A DNA stretch of 64,000 nucleotides, from NCBI GenBank assembly GCA_001038565.1, contig LFJO01000002.1, positions 484,970 through 548,969 on the forward strand, read 5' to 3'. This DNA comes from Alkalihalobacillus pseudalcaliphilus. Its GTDB lineage: Bacteria; Bacillota; Bacilli; Bacillales; Bacillaceae_D. The translations under genes were made by a program, and so were the position numbers. Under the pieces are notes generated by a model. The model saw only the letters and a program-made list of their open reading frames with translations. It ran no database searches and was not told the DNA's origin. Of this stretch, positions 802 through 6,133 are shown piece by piece. Position 1 is the stretch's first letter, and each line of letters starts with the position of its first letter.

Positions 802-2229
802 GTGACGGTACTAAATACGTTAAGAAGAATATCAATGACATTAAATCAAGGTGAAAACCTTGAAGACATGTTACAAGCTGTCCTTGAAACATTATTAGAA
901 ACAACAGGTATCGAAAGCGGTTGGATCTTTTTAATTGACGAAGTTGGACAACATCGTTTAGTTGCTGCGTCGGGTTTACCAGAAGGATTAAAGTATCAGG
1001 ATTGCCTCCCGCTTAAACAAGGTGGTTGCTGGTGTATGAATAAATATAAAAATAATGAGTTACCTCATGCTGTTAATATTATGAATTGTAAAAGGCTTGA
1101 GCAAGCCAATTTATATAATTGGGGTGGCACTGATAATTTAGAGCGACATGCAACGATTCCGATTCGAGCTGGAATAGAAGGCTTAGGAATTATGAATGTC
1201 GCGTCGGCACATATCGATGAATTTGATGAAACTGAGCTTGAGTTATTAGAGACGGTTGCTTATCAAATGGGTGCGGCAGTGAAGAGATTTCAGCTATTTT
1301 TGCAAGAACAGGAACGAACCATGTTGTTATCAAAGCTTGGCAGTTATCTTGCCCTGCAAACAGAGTGGAGTAATGAGCAGGAATTTCTAGTGCATACAAG
1401 TGAAACGTTAATGAAGTTGTTTCATTGGAGTGGTTTACAAGTTCAAGCACAAGAAAGTGTATACAATTTTGGGCAAAGGAACCGTCAGCAAAGAAAGATA
1501 AAGGTCGGCTTTAAAGATTCAGACCTACAATTAGTTGTTTTTTCAGATTCTTTCTCGCAGGGCAGTACGATGGTTCTTCAAGAGATTGCTACCCACCTCT
1601 CCCTCCAACTTGAAAAAATTGAAATTGAACGAAGGAAACAAAACATTGTACGCACAGAGGAACGTAATCGTCTGGCCCGCGACCTACATGATTCGGTGAA
1701 TCAACTATTGTTTTCCCTCATTTTACATGCAAAGGGTTTGGAAAAGAGAGTAAAGGATGAACACATAAACGCTTCTATTCAATCGATTCATAGCTTAGGT
1801 ACGGAAGCTTTGAAGGAGCTGAAACAATTAATCTATCAGCTGAGGCCAGAAGGTTTAGAGTTTGGGCTTGTAGCAGCCATTCAAAAATACGGGCAGCTAC
1901 TGGGGCTGGTGGTTCATATTGAAGCAAAGGGCTTAAAAGGGTTAACTGATGAGCAGGAACTGTGTTTGTGGCGAGTGATTCAAGAGGCTATGAATAATAC
2001 AAAAAAACATAGTGGTGTCACTGAATTATTTGTTACTTTTCAATTCTCCTCTGAATGTGTTCAAGTTCTGATTAAGGACCATGGTGTAGGTTTTAAACCA
2101 GAAAAGTCGACTACGGGTATCGGTCTTAAAACAATGGCAGAACGAATCAAGGAAGTCAGTGGAACGGTACAAGTACATTCAAACGCTGGAAATGGGACTT
2201 CGATTGTAATTGAAGTTCCTACAACATGA
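802..2229 (+). CDS. GAF-domain sensor histidine kinase (NarX/LiaS type, YhcY-like)
   Basis: 475 residues. An N-terminal GAF domain (about 15-160) precedes a HisKA_3 dimerisation segment with the H-box RNRLARDLHDSVNQ (phospho-accepting His in DLHD) and an HATPase domain with N-box EAMNNTKKH, DHGVGF and GIGLKTMAERI. No membrane segment is evident, so the sensor is probably cytosolic; the GAF domain has Cys-rich stretches (GGCWC, NCKR) that could bind a ligand or cofactor, which is inference. The GTG start is followed by a response-regulator gene 15 bases downstream, so the two form a two-component operon. The layout resembles B. subtilis YhcY/YhcZ, but orthology is not proved. Confidence 0.88.
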   Translation: MTVLNTLRRISMTLNQGENLEDMLQAVLETLLETTGIESGWIFLIDEVGQHRLVAASGLPEGLKYQDCLPLKQGGCWCMNKYKNNELPHAVNIMNCKRLEQANLYNWGGTDNLERHATIPIRAGIEGLGIMNVASAHIDEFDETELELLETVAYQMGAAVKRFQLFLQEQERTMLLSKLGSYLALQTEWSNEQEFLVHTSETLMKLFHWSGLQVQAQESVYNFGQRNRQQRKIKVGFKDSDLQLVVFSDSFSQGSTMVLQEIATHLSLQLEKIEIERRKQNIVRTEERNRLARDLHDSVNQLLFSLILHAKGLEKRVKDEHINASIQSIHSLGTEALKELKQLIYQLRPEGLEFGLVAAIQKYGQLLGLVVHIEAKGLKGLTDEQELCLWRVIQEAMNNTKKHSGVTELFVTFQFSSECVQVLIKDHGVGFKPEKSTTGIGLKTMAERIKEVSGTVQVHSNAGNGTSIVIEVPTT

Positions 2230-2244
2230 AAAAGAGGCGATAAC

Positions 2245-2889
2245 ATGGGGATAAAACTTTTAATTGTAGATGATCATACAGTCGTGCGGAAGGGTTTGAT
2301 TTTTTTCCTGGAAACGATGGATCAATTTGAAGTTGTCGGTGATGCTGAAAATGGAGATGAGGCAATAAAATTAGTTGGAAAGCTAAAGCCGGATGTAGTT
2401 CTTATGGATGTGATGATGCCTGTTATGGACGGTATTGAAGCGACGGAACACATAGTTGCTCAATTTCCTAATGTGAAAGTATTAGTCCTCAGTAGCTTCT
2501 CTGAACAAGACCATGTGATTCCAGCATTAAAGGCTGGAGCTAGTGGTTATCAATTAAAGGATATTGAACCAGAACAGCTAGCTGAAACGATACAAGCAGT
2601 TTATCAGGGAGAGCATAAACTGCATGATAAAGTAACAAAATTTGTTCTGACACGGATCGCTCAGCCACAATCCGAAGATGAAAGGCGAGTAGCTTCTCTA
2701 ACAAAACGTGAGATAGACGTATTACAGGAGATTGCGACGGGGAAAAGTAATAAAGAGATTGGTATAAGTTTGGCGATTACTGAAAAAACGGTTAAAACAC
2801 ATATATCAAATATTTTTCAAAAAATTGATGTGCAAGACCGAACACAAGCCGCTCTATTTGCTATAAAAAATAAGGTTGTTCAGTTTTAG
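2245..2889 (+). CDS. NarL/FixJ-family response regulator (YhcZ-like)
   Basis: 214 residues: a receiver domain (1-120) with the acidic pair Asp9-Asp10, phospho-acceptor Asp55 in VLMDVMMP, the SS and K positions of the switch (LVLSSF, QLKD), then a LuxR-type helix-turn-helix (about 147-205: LTKREIDVLQEIATGKSNKE and TVKTHISNIFQKI). ATG 2245 is preceded by AAAGAGGCGATAAC. It follows the kinase by 15 bases and is its evident partner. Targets cannot be read from this window. Confidence 0.92.
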   Translation: MGIKLLIVDDHTVVRKGLIFFLETMDQFEVVGDAENGDEAIKLVGKLKPDVVLMDVMMPVMDGIEATEHIVAQFPNVKVLVLSSFSEQDHVIPALKAGASGYQLKDIEPEQLAETIQAVYQGEHKLHDKVTKFVLTRIAQPQSEDERRVASLTKREIDVLQEIATGKSNKEIGISLAITEKTVKTHISNIFQKIDVQDRTQAALFAIKNKVVQF

Positions 2890-2912: not shown

Positions 2913-2944
2913 AAAACCCTAATTTCATATGAGATTAGGGTTTT
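2913..2944. terminator. Bidirectional terminator between converging genes
   Basis: Perfect stem AAAACCCTAAT / ATTAGGGTTTT with T-rich flanks in both directions. It serves the response regulator (+) and the VOC gene (-); the VOC stop codon lies within its 3' arm. Confidence 0.85.
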
Positions 2945-3309
2945 TCCTCCGTACTGATAAGCTCGATGATTTCCTTTTCAACCCCTTCGTAATAGGCAAT
3001 CTTCCAGCCGTTGCTAAGTTGAAAAGGTCCTTCTATCGGATATAAGCCAGCTTGCTTTAGTAGATTCATTTGACCAACTAAAGAGGGGACTTCAATAGCG
3101 AAGTGAATAGGCTGATGCCTTGCTATTTGTTTTTCGGTGGAACCTTTAATATAAGAGAGTTCTAAAAGAAAGGAACCAATTTTTAAAAAGATGATCTCTT
3201 CGTTATTAATAAAAAAATGATTAATGATTTGGGCCTGAAAATATCTTTGATAGAAATGTGTACTTCTTGATAAATCCGTAACTTCGATACCAATATGATG
3301 TACGTTCAT
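2935..3309 (-). CDS. VOC-superfamily (glyoxalase-like) metalloprotein
   Basis: 124 residues, a single vicinal-oxygen-chelate domain: N-terminal HHIGIEVTDL, central HFAIEVP and C-terminal KEIIELIS give the usual His/His/Glu metal-ligand spacing. This looks most like the methylmalonyl-CoA epimerase/glyoxalase subgroup, but the substrate cannot be assigned. It starts 13 bases after the stop of the QueA-like gene with GAGGGGAAG as ribosome-binding site, so it is the third gene of the SDR/QueA-like/VOC operon. Confidence 0.75.
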   Translation of the reverse strand: MNVHHIGIEVTDLSRSTHFYQRYFQAQIINHFFINNEEIIFLKIGSFLLELSYIKGSTEKQIARHQPIHFAIEVPSLVGQMNLLKQAGLYPIEGPFQLSNGWKIAYYEGVEKEIIELISTEEKP

Positions 3310-3322
3310 TTACTTCCCCTCA

Positions 3323-4339
3323 CTAAAGAATCAAATTAATATCACCAAACTCATGCCAGAGATACCTATGATTGAGTGCATGGTGATAGGCTCTCCGTAC
3401 ATACTCTTCTTTTGTAAAGGCACGAAGCATATGGAGGTGGCTAGTTTCAGGTTCATGCAAACCAGTTAGGAGCCCATCGACGAAATTTAGTGATGTATCA
3501 CCGGTGACATATAAGTTCGTATGCCCTGAAAGGGTAGGTGAATGCTTGTTTAAAGCGACGGTCTCAAGGGCACGGACAACGGTTGTCCCTACAGCGATAA
3601 CACGATTGCCATTCCTTTTTGTTTCGATAACATCTGTGAATGTTTGTTCTGGAACCGAATAGGCTTCAGGGTGAAAAAGTGGATTTGGCCAATGATCATT
3701 TCCATAATAGCTAATGCCAGCATGTAATTCTAAAAAGGCTATTCGAATACCTACTTTTTTCAATTTCTTGATAAGACTCCATGTAAAAGCACGTCCTGCA
3801 GAAGGCATTTCAATTGAACCAGGAACGGATGCAAACATCGTTTGATAATCTGAAAGTGGCCAGTTTTTATTAATATATTCGTAGCGAATAGGTGTGCCAT
3901 ATTTGTGTAAATAAGACAAGACTGGCTCTTTCAGTTGTTCAAATTGAATCTTGATAAGTGGAGACTCGCTTCCTTTTCCGATTATCTTGATCTGCACATT
4001 TTCAGGGAGTTTGAGTAACGTCTGTGATGAATCAGGGAATAAAATTGCTTCCCAAACAGTATCGGTGATTTTTCTAGCTAATCGTATTTCCGTTTGCTGG
4101 TCAGACGTTTTTAAGACAGCAGGTATGGTTCTGCTTCGATTGAAAACGAGTAAGTCTCCTGTTTGTAATAGATGTGGTAAATCTAGCAATGTTTGATCGT
4201 TAATTGTACCTGTTTTCCTATCTAATGTTAATAATTGTACGCGATCTCTTTGGCCCTTACTATATTCGATTGGTGCTTCTGCGTTTAGTTCAGAGGGGAT
4301 TTGAAAGGTTTGATTATTGGTAGATAAGGTATCGTTCAT
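3323..4339 (-). CDS. Divergent QueA paralogue (S-adenosylmethionine:tRNA ribosyltransferase-isomerase family)
   Basis: 338 residues, full length for the QueA family. The C-terminal part is well conserved (NRVIAVGTTVVRALE, VDGLLTGLHEPE, HEFGDINLI), as is DYQTMFASVPGS. Several motifs that are nearly invariant in true QueA are changed: NDTR is NRSR (LLVFNRSRTIPAVL), APTAGLHFT is MPSAGRAFT, and the LHVGxGTFxPV loop reads LHAGISYYGNDHWP. True QueA transfers the ribosyl part of SAM to preQ1 in tRNA; the altered loops suggest another acceptor or reaction, which is inference. The ATG overlaps the SDR stop codon by four bases (ATGA), so translation is coupled. Ribosome-binding site TGGAG. Confidence 0.85.
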   Translation of the reverse strand: MNDTLSTNNQTFQIPSELNAEAPIEYSKGQRDRVQLLTLDRKTGTINDQTLLDLPHLLQTGDLLVFNRSRTIPAVLKTSDQQTEIRLARKITDTVWEAILFPDSSQTLLKLPENVQIKIIGKGSESPLIKIQFEQLKEPVLSYLHKYGTPIRYEYINKNWPLSDYQTMFASVPGSIEMPSAGRAFTWSLIKKLKKVGIRIAFLELHAGISYYGNDHWPNPLFHPEAYSVPEQTFTDVIETKRNGNRVIAVGTTVVRALETVALNKHSPTLSGHTNLYVTGDTSLNFVDGLLTGLHEPETSHLHMLRAFTKEEYVRRAYHHALNHRYLWHEFGDINLIL

Positions 4340-5061
4340 ATCGAATCTCCATTCAGGTAATCCTCAATGTTATAGCGCTTACCGTTTGATTTGTATCTTT
4401 CTTCCATAATTTGATCAAACAAAGGAAGTAGTTGGGCGGGCTCGAGTAGCGGGTAATCGCAATCTGGAACAGCGATTTCATGCATCGTTGTATTCATTTC
4501 TCCTGGATCGATTAAGCAAGTATGCACACCTGTTCCCTCAAGTTCATCCGCCCACGTTTGTACCATACCTTCAAGTGCAAATTTAGAGATACCGTAAGCT
4601 CCCCATTCAGCAAATCCCGTTTTTCCTGCAGCAGAGGTTATATTAATGATGAGCCCTTCTTCACGATTTAACATGCCTGATAGAACTCTTTTTGTAACTA
4701 AAAATGGGTTAAGAATATTAATTTGGAGTACATGGTTAAAATGTATTTCTGGGTAATCAATTAATTCCGTTGGTCCAGGACCAAAAATGGATGCGTTGTT
4801 AATGAGCGTGTCGATGTGACCAAATTGTTCTTCCGCAACGGAGACAAGGCGGTCAACGTCCTGATAGTTAGATACGTCGGCTTCTATTGCGATAATGGTA
4901 GCACCTAATGCTTCTGCTTTTCTTTTTACTTGATTTAGTTCATGGATGTTTCTTGAGCAGATGATGAGTTTCTGTTGTTTGCTTGCAAAATGGTATGTCA
5001 GTTGTTCGCCTAATCCTTTAGAGGCGCCTGTAATCATGATAACTTCTTGTGTTTTTTTCAT
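4336..5061 (-). CDS. Short-chain dehydrogenase/reductase (SDR)
   Basis: About 241 residues of a classical SDR: the dinucleotide motif TGASKGLG, NNAS, the catalytic Ser of NITSAAG, and YGISK (Tyr-x-x-x-Lys), followed by DPGEMNT. The substrate is not identifiable. I choose ATG 5061 because GAAAGGATG lies upstream at normal spacing; an ATG nine bases earlier overlaps that site. It is the first gene of the operon with the QueA-like and VOC genes, which suggests that the three act on one substrate. Confidence 0.85.
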   Translation of the reverse strand: MKKTQEVIMITGASKGLGEQLTYHFASKQQKLIICSRNIHELNQVKRKAEALGATIIAIEADVSNYQDVDRLVSVAEEQFGHIDTLINNASIFGPGPTELIDYPEIHFNHVLQINILNPFLVTKRVLSGMLNREEGLIINITSAAGKTGFAEWGAYGISKFALEGMVQTWADELEGTGVHTCLIDPGEMNTTMHEIAVPDCDYPLLEPAQLLPLFDQIMEERYKSNGKRYNIEDYLNGDSI

Positions 5062-5077
5062 GTTAATCATCCTTTCG

Positions 5078-5209
5078 TTTTGTATGAAAGTGTACTAAAG
5101 CTGGTGTGCTCTTCTTCGAAGCTCGCTCCGAGAAGGGAGTTCAGCACCCGCCATTCCCTCCGCTTTGGTTAGTGCAGGCTTCTTGGTTAGCAAACTTCTC
5201 ATACAAAAT
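5078..5209. repeat. Intergenic repeat copy R1, with outward-facing inverted ends
   Basis: The block begins with TTTTGTATGAAAGTGTA (5078-5094), the reverse complement of the family's 3' end, and closes with ACTTCTCATACAAAA (5194-5208). It is the only copy where both ends are visible as an inverted pair. The interior holds TTCAGCACCC, also seen in the copy near 20217, and a short CTTCTTCGAAG palindrome. The left end abuts the SDR ribosome-binding site. Confidence 0.7.
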
Positions 5210-5494
5210 AGATGAATGAAAGGTAATAAAAGTTAACAAACCAAGAAGCAAAGGCATATTGAACAAAAATGCCACCAGTCAAGGGGCAAACGTGAATCGG
5301 CTTCGCCATGAATGAGTAGTTGTGTCATGTTTCTATGTACATTGTATGTTTGAATCGTTTTTTAAACATCGGGGATTGGTTGGGAGGATAAGTAATAAAA
5401 TGGAAGGAGAGTATCTACAACTATAGATGTAGATTCATAGCAAACATTTGTTTGTATTTGTATGGTAGATTGTAGTAAAATAAAGGTGAACCAA
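5210..5494. other. Intergenic region upstream of the Mrr-like gene
   Basis: No gene seen. It holds a 7-bp perfect inverted repeat ATCTACA (5413-5419) / TGTAGAT (5428-5434) around an 8-base centre, a possible operator or small hairpin, about 60 bases before the next gene. The AT-rich stretch before it may hold the promoter; no clear consensus was found. Confidence 0.4.
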
Positions 5495-6133
5495 ATGAGA
5501 AGAATGGATGATGTTCTTTTGGAATTGTTACAATTACTGATGATGGGTATTATTGTTCTATTACTTATGACAGTCTGTTTTTGGTTGTGGATAAAAAAGC
5601 TTAGAAGTAAAAAGTATGACCTAACGAAAATTTCGTTAGCTGATATTGATAAAATGTCAGGTCATGACTTTGAGGATTATTTAGTTGTCTTGTTTGCAGC
5701 ACTTGGGTTTAAAGATATTTATTTAACAAAAAAAAGCAGAGATTTTGGGGCAGATATGATTTTTTATAATCAACATTTAGAAAAGACTGTCCTGCAAGCC
5801 AAGCGATATTCTGATAAATTGGGGCTCACGGCCGTTCAAGAAGTATATGCAGCACAGGCATTTTATGAGGCAAAAAGAGGTTTGATTGTTACAACGAGTT
5901 CACGAATTTCAGACCCTTGCTATCAATTAGCTTTGGCAACCCAAATTGGAATTATTGACCGAGACGGGGTAGAACATATTATAAAGCTTTTAAAAAAAGG
6001 AAAAGTGGAGCAGGCTCGCCTATTTATGGAGGAAGCATTTGTTGTTGAACCGTACCAATATGAAAATTCTTTAGAACAATTGGATACGGAGCGTCACATT
6101 TTAAAAGTAGGCGACTATTATTATAAACGATAA
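5495..6133 (+). CDS. Membrane-anchored Mrr-like restriction endonuclease-fold protein
   Basis: 212 residues. One strongly hydrophobic segment (about residues 8-32) followed by the basic KKLRSKK predicts an N-terminal anchor with the rest in the cytosol. Residues about 45-165 form a restriction-endonuclease/Mrr_cat domain: MSGHDFEDYL (first Glu), DFGADMI (Asp), LQAKRYS (Gln-x-Lys) and an RGLIVTTS core, the usual PD-(D/E)xK arrangement of DNA nucleases. No methylase or other restriction gene is adjacent. ATG 5495 has AAAGGTGA at proper spacing; the longer reading from 5462 lacks one. The role is unknown: modified-DNA restriction and DNA repair are both possible. Confidence 0.8.
   Translation: MRRMDDVLLELLQLLMMGIIVLLLMTVCFWLWIKKLRSKKYDLTKISLADIDKMSGHDFEDYLVVLFAALGFKDIYLTKKSRDFGADMIFYNQHLEKTVLQAKRYSDKLGLTAVQEVYAAQAFYEAKRGLIVTTSSRISDPCYQLALATQIGIIDRDGVEHIIKLLKKGKVEQARLFMEEAFVVEPYQYENSLEQLDTERHILKVGDYYYKR

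Follow-up and report, generated by a model that had tools for sequence, protein, structure and literature searches.

A QueA-like protein and its dehydrogenase partner in Alkalihalobacillus pseudalcaliphilus: a group distinct from QueA with a possible role in responses to redox-active compounds

What does a protein with the fold of the queuosine enzyme QueA do in an operon with a dehydrogenase? The question is raised by a 64,000 nucleotide stretch of the genome of Alkalihalobacillus pseudalcaliphilus (assembly GCA_001038565.1, contig LFJO01000002.1, positions 484,970 to 548,969 of the forward strand), which as a whole is referred to as the window below. The QueA-like protein, here termed QAL, is encoded together with a short-chain dehydrogenase/reductase (SDR) and a vicinal oxygen chelate (VOC) protein. 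We suggest that QAL and the SDR are a redox-sensor-linked pair of enzymes acting on a small molecule, with S-adenosylmethionine (SAM) as the probable donor, and that the pair responds to redox-active compounds. We give this reading a probability of about one half.

Judged by its signature, QAL is a group distinct from QueA. The window protein belongs to Pfam family PF02547, with a score of 252.5 against a gathering cut-off of 25 bits, and is under both queA equivalog cut-offs (NF001140, 206 against 324; TIGR00113, 172.8 against 267.45), as are the four further members tested (L055, L131, L119 and L162). The QueA of the same genome (locus L001) reads NDTRVLPA and GSAAAPTAGLHW where the window QAL reads NRSRTIPA and GSIEMPSAGRAF. 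Our alignment set 31 QueA rows against 89 QAL rows, of which 46 are Bacillaceae-type and 43 are others, after identical rows and rows shorter than 300 residues had been dropped. The QueA motifs NDTR, APTAGLHF and LHVGxGTF are not kept in QAL. Residues G210, T211 and F212 of the last motif, present in 100% of the QueA rows, are replaced, and the QueA-invariant R68, R164, H184, R331 and HxMH are gone. Counting a position as switched when QueA and QAL are each fixed to 85% or more but differ in the residue, we found 13 switched positions, with the QAL states V34, T71, Y153, E177, M178, S180, R183, G293, S300, H301, W328, H329 and E330. As E177, M178, S180 and R183 are fixed across the 89 QAL rows, the motif changes pointed out in an earlier note on this DNA are real and a trait of the family. 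The core that QAL retains in common with QueA includes R31, D62, N67, A181, H206, E225, G251-T252-T253, R256, E259, H295 and F331-G332-D333.

A structure prediction, proposed in the earlier note, agrees with this relationship. The AlphaFold model of QAL, built from 26 rows, has a predicted local distance difference test score of 91.2 and a predicted template modelling score of 0.90. Among the chains ranked by Foldseek, the only ones that the structure alignment took in, its best matches are three QueA structures (Z 25.5 to 27.4, root mean square deviation 7.7 to 8.8 over 271 to 281 residues), and the next matches have Z of at most 5.2. In an unrooted tree of 79 rows, a branch 1.47 changes per column long, with a support of 100, separates QueA from all other rows, and the Bacillaceae QAL (support 92) and the actinomycete and other QAL (support 99) form separate groups. 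The tree does not show QAL as one clade, and QAL may be the stock from which QueA arose.

Strain-level evidence separates QAL from queuosine synthesis as well. A canonical queA (462 bits) adjoins tgt (567 bits), the gene for tRNA-guanine transglycosylase (TGT), on contig C22, where queC (284 bits) is found elsewhere; the window lies on contig C18. The earlier statement that no queuosine genes are nearby thus holds for queA, tgt and queC; queD, queE and queF were not searched for. With another queA in the genome and with the carriers without TGT described below, QAL is excluded as the working QueA of the strain, and its description as a divergent QueA paralogue stands. Lack of a further queA, which the earlier note gave as a refuting result, is not what the genome shows.

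Among 30 genomes with QAL, TGT was found in four (G000, G851, G766 and G646), each of which also has a canonical QueA of 435 to 485 bits. TGT and canonical QueA were absent from the other 26, namely all 25 Actinomycetes tested, the completeness of whose assemblies is not stated, and G783. These 26 genomes have no PF02547 match above 257 bits, i.e. they have QAL alone. The same TGT search was positive in 14 of 14 control genomes. Because neither TGT nor canonical QueA is present there, preQ1-tRNA cannot be the substrate of QAL in the carriers without TGT. Matches to PF06508 (QueC) over the Pfam cut-off occur in 12 of the 25 Actinomycetes, with 20 to 26 bits, or up to 28.9 with neighbours. They sit in frames of 527 to 709 residues, compare with 279 to 284 bits in G000 and G851, and are probably relatives of another kind.

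At an E value of at most 1e-20, the QAL profile matched 78 of 394 evenly drawn Actinomycetes genomes. For the best 30 of those 78 (L058 to L087), GSAEMxSAxRP was found in 29 and WHEFGD in 29, with at least one of the two in each. A second QAL fragment (87.5 bits) lies about 18 kb from the first in the Actinomadura genome G060 (L157, 7030-7320). QAL is rare elsewhere in the phylum of the window: the profile exceeded 280 bits in only 5 of 398 genomes, the window included, all five with the signature. It should be added that this search did not score every candidate of a genome, and that it overlooked the canonical QueA of G646, which a later search found.

The constant partner of QAL is the SDR. 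In a sample of 60 genomes, the own genome included, 25 hold QAL beside a better QueA match (QAL 277 to 401 bits, the query itself apart; others at most 155). An SDR ortholog of at least 352 bits was found in all 25 and in none of the 35 genomes without QAL. Chance adjacency of the SDR, QAL and VOC genes was rejected, as SDR and QAL occur in one identical set of 25 among the 60 genomes. We further compared 50 QAL loci (L003 to L027 and L033 to L057), among them the window as L003 and a single genome entered as both L010 and L033. All 50 have the SDR, 49 by clustering and L056 by model. The VOC gene was found by clustering at 47; L055 and L056 have none, and L011 (G028) has a remnant at 1299-1484. 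Beyond this set, the SDR is on the QAL strand at most 1.4 kb away in 34 of 35 actinomycete loci, L130 being the one where it was not found, and in four of four further Bacillota loci; L121, one of these four, comes from the same genome as L042. The VOC gene was absent beside QAL in all 35 actinomycete loci and was not found in the Rhizobium locus L162, and was rejected as a core part. Conservation of the three-gene set, raised earlier as a check, therefore holds for the SDR and for most Bacillota-type loci, with a VOC gene that is optional and missing from actinomycete loci. The core is SDR and QAL, and the VOC protein is an optional addition in Bacillota.

Two side observations concern this set. 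A decayed QAL copy with one in-frame stop lies in L020 (G019) at 1486-2517. The locus L053, titled Chryseobacterium sp. ISL-80, falls within the Mesobacillus/Bacillus group of the tree and has the same neighbours, and probably comes from a mislabelled assembly.

The window SDR has the features of a classical SDR, with TGxxxGxG and the catalytic Ser, Tyr and Lys. None of the 25 rows aligned varies at Ser146, Tyr159, Lys163 or R40, and R40 suggests the use of NADP(H). In the VOC protein, H5, E50 and H69 are invariant and E116 is at least 90% conserved in 28 rows. This H/E/H/E set is like the four metal ligands of glyoxalase I. We did not name the protein GloA because its score of 20.4 is far under the cut-off of 165.

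The genes beside the pair, which the earlier note did not take up, suggest a link to redox sensing and are the best clue to its function. The 35 actinomycete loci (L122 to L156) comprise 14 with soxR, 17 with a GAF-domain kinase and a NarL-type regulator, four with neither and none with both SoxR and the kinase; L153 has SoxR plus a weak regulator match of 54 bits. In the 14 loci, soxR adjoins SDR-QAL on the opposite strand, and the two SoxR proteins tested pass TIGR01950 (199.9 and 195.8 against 116.9 bits). In all 14, a SoxR-box-like site, matched at 12 to 16 of 18 bases, lies 28 to 64 bases 5' of the model start of the SDR. The scores of these sites were reached in at most 5% of trials by shuffles in two-base blocks. 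The four loci with neither regulator all have such a site as well, 23 to 63 bases 5' of the SDR model start and matched at 13 to 15 of 18 bases. The site is thus found in 18 of 18 actinomycete loci with SoxR or neither regulator. In the 16 kinase loci, from which L130 was omitted for want of an SDR, the best score is 9 to 11 of 18, and none exceeds 11. A major facilitator superfamily (MFS) transporter gene is found at four loci (L055, L056, L124 and L130). SoxR is described, in the excerpt available of PMC4146615, as a [2Fe-2S] regulator answering redox-active compounds, and its activation by compounds is also treated in the corresponding part of PMC5288332. In the former excerpt, the SoxR of Streptomyces coelicolor controls six genes, among them a transporter and tailoring-like enzymes. 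That regulon resembles the loci studied here in having SoxR and a SoxR-box-like site ahead of oxidoreductase genes. It differs in that the SDR-QAL pair of S. coelicolor has a kinase and regulator instead and is not among the targets named there.

In Bacillota, the regulator cluster occurs at 24 of the 50 QAL loci, many of which have a flank of only 1.5 kb. All 29 Bacillota kinases that were aligned (L166 to L185 included), whether linked to QAL or not, carry C-x-C-x17-C and then a His in the GAF domain, and this motif might hold a metal or an Fe-S cluster. Six of six actinomycete kinases aligned do not have C-x-C-x17-C. A dyad, CTACNNCAAAAGTNGTAG, matched at 12 to 15 of 15 bases, lies about 100 bases 5' of the SDR in the majority of the Bacillota loci that have the kinase nearby. 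The match is only 9 to 11 of 15 in many Bacillota loci without a nearby kinase and in the kinase loci L019, L049 and L057. As some of the scored sequences had also served to derive the pattern, these counts describe and do not test. The dyad is absent from the 300 bases 5' of the SDR in the window, where the best match is 8 of 15. A site with two mismatches lies farther off, beyond a dispersed repeat as seen from the SDR, and is a possible operator of the response regulator. The window has three matches, among which this site counts twice, once per strand, where 1.57 would be expected; alone, this is weak evidence.

A distant relative occurs in 32 Rhizobium plasmid records, that of the query included. 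SoxR, SDR and the QueA-like gene have the same divergent arrangement in the three loci read, by annotation in Rhizobium etli CFN 42 p42f and Rhizobium sp. T136 and by model in L162 (SoxR 179 bits). Between the divergent genes of L162, at 5222-5239, we read by eye a SoxR-type site, CTTCAAGTTAACTTGAAC. We count the Rhizobium protein in because of its signature and the genes beside it; its score was not the ground for this.

Other divergent QueA-like genes were seen in biosynthetic-looking plasmid clusters: L158 5980-7014 (pGeo12a), L160 4995-6041 (pSaLI10) and L159 5956-6981 (pRmeGR4a). Their neighbours are diaminopimelate-decarboxylase-like, PqqD-like, thymidylate-synthase-like and phosphotransferase genes, or two radical SAM genes. 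These proteins share E177, S300 and E330 with QAL and not with QueA. Unlike QAL, they have no SDR, occur with thymidylate-synthase-like and PqqD-like or with radical SAM genes, and are placed nearer to QueA in the tree. At positions 177, 300 and 330, QueA has A, T and S, and QAL and all plasmid relatives examined have E, S and E. These three residues may mark a small-molecule acceptor site. All three groups have in common R31, D62, N67, G148, A181, E225, G244, A249, G251, R256, E259, T292, H295, A307, Y326, F331, G332 and D333, and because this core is common to them it suggests the same donor site.

The reaction that we propose can be outlined as follows. QAL would keep the SAM chemistry of QueA, in which the ribosyl carbons leave SAM and adenine and methionine are released, and would transfer these carbons to a small molecule instead of preQ1-tRNA. 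E177 and E330, together with R183, H301 and H329, would line the new acceptor site. The SDR would reduce or oxidise the substrate or the product with NADP(H), and in Bacillota the glyoxalase-I-like VOC protein would add a third step. The purpose would most likely be to process a redox-active compound, whether made by the cell itself or met from outside. Control would lie with SoxR in Rhizobium and at two fifths of the actinomycete loci, and with the GAF kinase and NarL-type regulator in most other actinomycete loci, in many Bacillota and in the window. We favour modification of redox-active compounds because SoxR or a possible redox kinase and, at four loci, an MFS gene adjoin the pair. The data show the distinct group, its pairing with the SDR, carriers that lack both TGT and canonical QueA, soxR genes accompanied by SoxR-box-like sites, and the neighbouring kinase and regulator genes; we infer the actual regulation, the donor, the small-molecule acceptor, the purpose, the order of the steps and the direction of the SDR reaction.

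Several points weigh against this reading. The evidence on SAM and on any substrate is indirect. The SoxR-box sites were scored against an assumed consensus of the Escherichia coli SoxR box. In the kinase locus L133, a SoxR-box score of 11 of 18 has a shuffle frequency of 0.05. No SoxR match came up within the first 16 kb of the window, nor in any other Bacillota locus that was examined; in the window, the kinase and regulator occupy its place. At an E value of at most 1e-80, 17 of the 25 genomes that carry QAL have the kinase, as do 9 of the 35 that lack QAL, so that a strict tie between kinase and QAL was rejected; this threshold misses some kinases adjoining QAL, e.g. in L013. The Rhizobium protein scores 186 bits with the QAL model, against 238 to 275 for canonical QueAs, has 9 of the 13 switched states, and stands on a long branch with an unsure place in the tree. 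Lastly, the S. coelicolor SoxR targets named in the excerpt of PMC4146615 do not include SCO1803 and SCO1804.

The main rival to the processing of redox-active compounds is metabolite biosynthesis. Here the pair would make a secreted metabolite, pigment or signal, to which SAM would give a unit derived from its ribosyl group, perhaps a carbocyclic one. The redox sensor would time production and the MFS protein would export the product. The MFS genes beside the pair at four loci and the biosynthetic-looking surroundings of the divergent plasmid genes would fit this. However, most loci have two or three enzymes only, no other biosynthetic neighbour is conserved, and the SoxR regulon of S. coelicolor is described in the excerpt of PMC4146615 as processing and transport. 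We consider this rival rather unlikely, if worth keeping in mind. It is improbable, in our view, that QAL is a stress-induced RNA modification enzyme placing a SAM-derived group on some RNA base that is not preQ1. In favour of it, tRNA is what QueA acts on, and QAL shares the fold of QueA in full, but an obligate SDR partner would be odd for tRNA modification and the QueA-invariant residues listed above, from R68 to HxMH, are lost. Net charge does not settle the matter, as actinomycete QAL (-3.2) is near QueA (-2.8) and Bacillota QAL is more acidic (-7.0).

QAL might also no longer use SAM, its fold being reused as another lyase, an isomerase or a binder. Many QueA-invariant residues are gone, and no structure with bound SAM, which would mark the SAM site, was found among the QueA structures looked up. 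Against this stand R31, D62, N67, E225, R256, E259, H295 and F331-G332-D333, common to QueA, QAL and the plasmid relatives, and we regard this explanation as quite improbable. That QAL works as a second QueA, or is a copy of QueA in decay, is barely credible. Membership in PF02547 and the listing of the S. coelicolor gene as QueA in a table of PMC4932002, a source available in part, would speak for it. The scores under the equivalog cut-offs, the canonical queA-tgt pair and the 25 carriers without TGT contradict a second QueA, and the strict conservation within QAL speaks against decay.

Returning to the redox-linked small-molecule enzymes, we offer a wider proposal more tentatively, with somewhat more doubt than trust. 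QueA would be one tRNA-acting branch of a wider SAM-ribosyl superfamily acting on small molecules, the non-tRNA members of which share E177, S300 and E330. One group among them, QAL with its SDR, would serve Bacillota, Actinomycetota and Rhizobium as a response to redox-active compounds under the control of redox sensors. By the title of Slany 1994, as cited in PMC6313347, the transfer and isomerisation of the ribose of SAM by QueA is reportedly a unique reaction. If our proposal is true, a large QueA-fold group in organisms without TGT, at present annotated as a tRNA enzyme, would make this use of SAM wider than thought. The reading can be tested directly by way of the partner SDR and the SoxR sites.

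In comparison with known systems, QueA itself (TIGR00113, NF001140; PDB 1vky, 1wdi and 1yy3) is like QAL in PF02547 membership, length, overall fold and invariant core, and QAL differs in its 13 switches, sub-cut-off scores, SDR partner, lack of an adjoining tgt, and carriers without TGT. We presume, from gene types, gene order and SCO numbers that were also met in papers, that the set corresponds to SCO1801 to SCO1804 of S. coelicolor. Its NarL-type regulator, kinase, SDR and 'QueA' genes are ordered as in the Streptomyces-like loci fetched; unlike the window, it has no VOC gene and its kinase has a GAF domain of another type. In the portions available of the respective papers, tables list the kinase and regulator pair without a name (PMC9739842), the SDR as L-fuco-beta-pyranose dehydrogenase (PMC11272600) and the QAL member as QueA (PMC4932002); no function is stated in any of these portions. 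The last annotation, which counts this member as QueA in print, would be corrected by the present finding. No described function for the QAL group was found in the open-licence literature of PubMed Central, consistent with the earlier suggestion of an undescribed pathway.

The features of the locus are collected in Table 1. From open reading frames and profile matches, the genes form two convergent transcription units, SDR-QAL-VOC on the minus strand and kinase-regulator on the plus strand.

Table 1. Features of the QAL locus, in positions of the window
Feature	Position	Strand	Remarks
QAL, QueA-fold protein of non-queuosine group	3323..4339	-	338 aa; PF02547 252.5 bits
SDR, obligate partner gene of QAL	4336..5070	-	PF00106 164.7 bits; start probably 5061 = 241 aa
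VOC, glyoxalase-like, Bacillota-type addition	2935..3309	-	124 aa; PF00903 25.9 bits
GAF-domain histidine kinase (HisKA_3)	802..2229	+	convergent with SDR-QAL-VOC operon
NarL-type response regulator	2245..2889	+	
Inverted repeat AAAACCCTAATTTC / GAGATTAGGGTTTT, possible two-way terminator	2913..2944	between convergent operons	read from sequence
Dyad CTACATCTATAGTTGTAG, possible response-regulator operator	5415..5432	-	2 mismatches to pattern 5' of other Bacillota SDRs

On re-reading, the coordinates given earlier for the three open reading frames proved correct, as did the four-base overlap of SDR and QAL (4336-4339) and the 13 bases between QAL and VOC (3310-3322). The SDR has two candidate starts, 5061 and 5070; an AAAGGA site is better spaced for 5061, which is the probable start. 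A terminator scan of the window did not call the inverted repeat between the operons. The dispersed repeat at 5085-5265, between the operon and the dyad, is matched at 57 places in the genome, counting itself. The divergent neighbour gene at 5462-6133 has a Mrr-type restriction endonuclease domain (PF04471), and a member of its cluster lies beside 10 of the 50 QAL loci.

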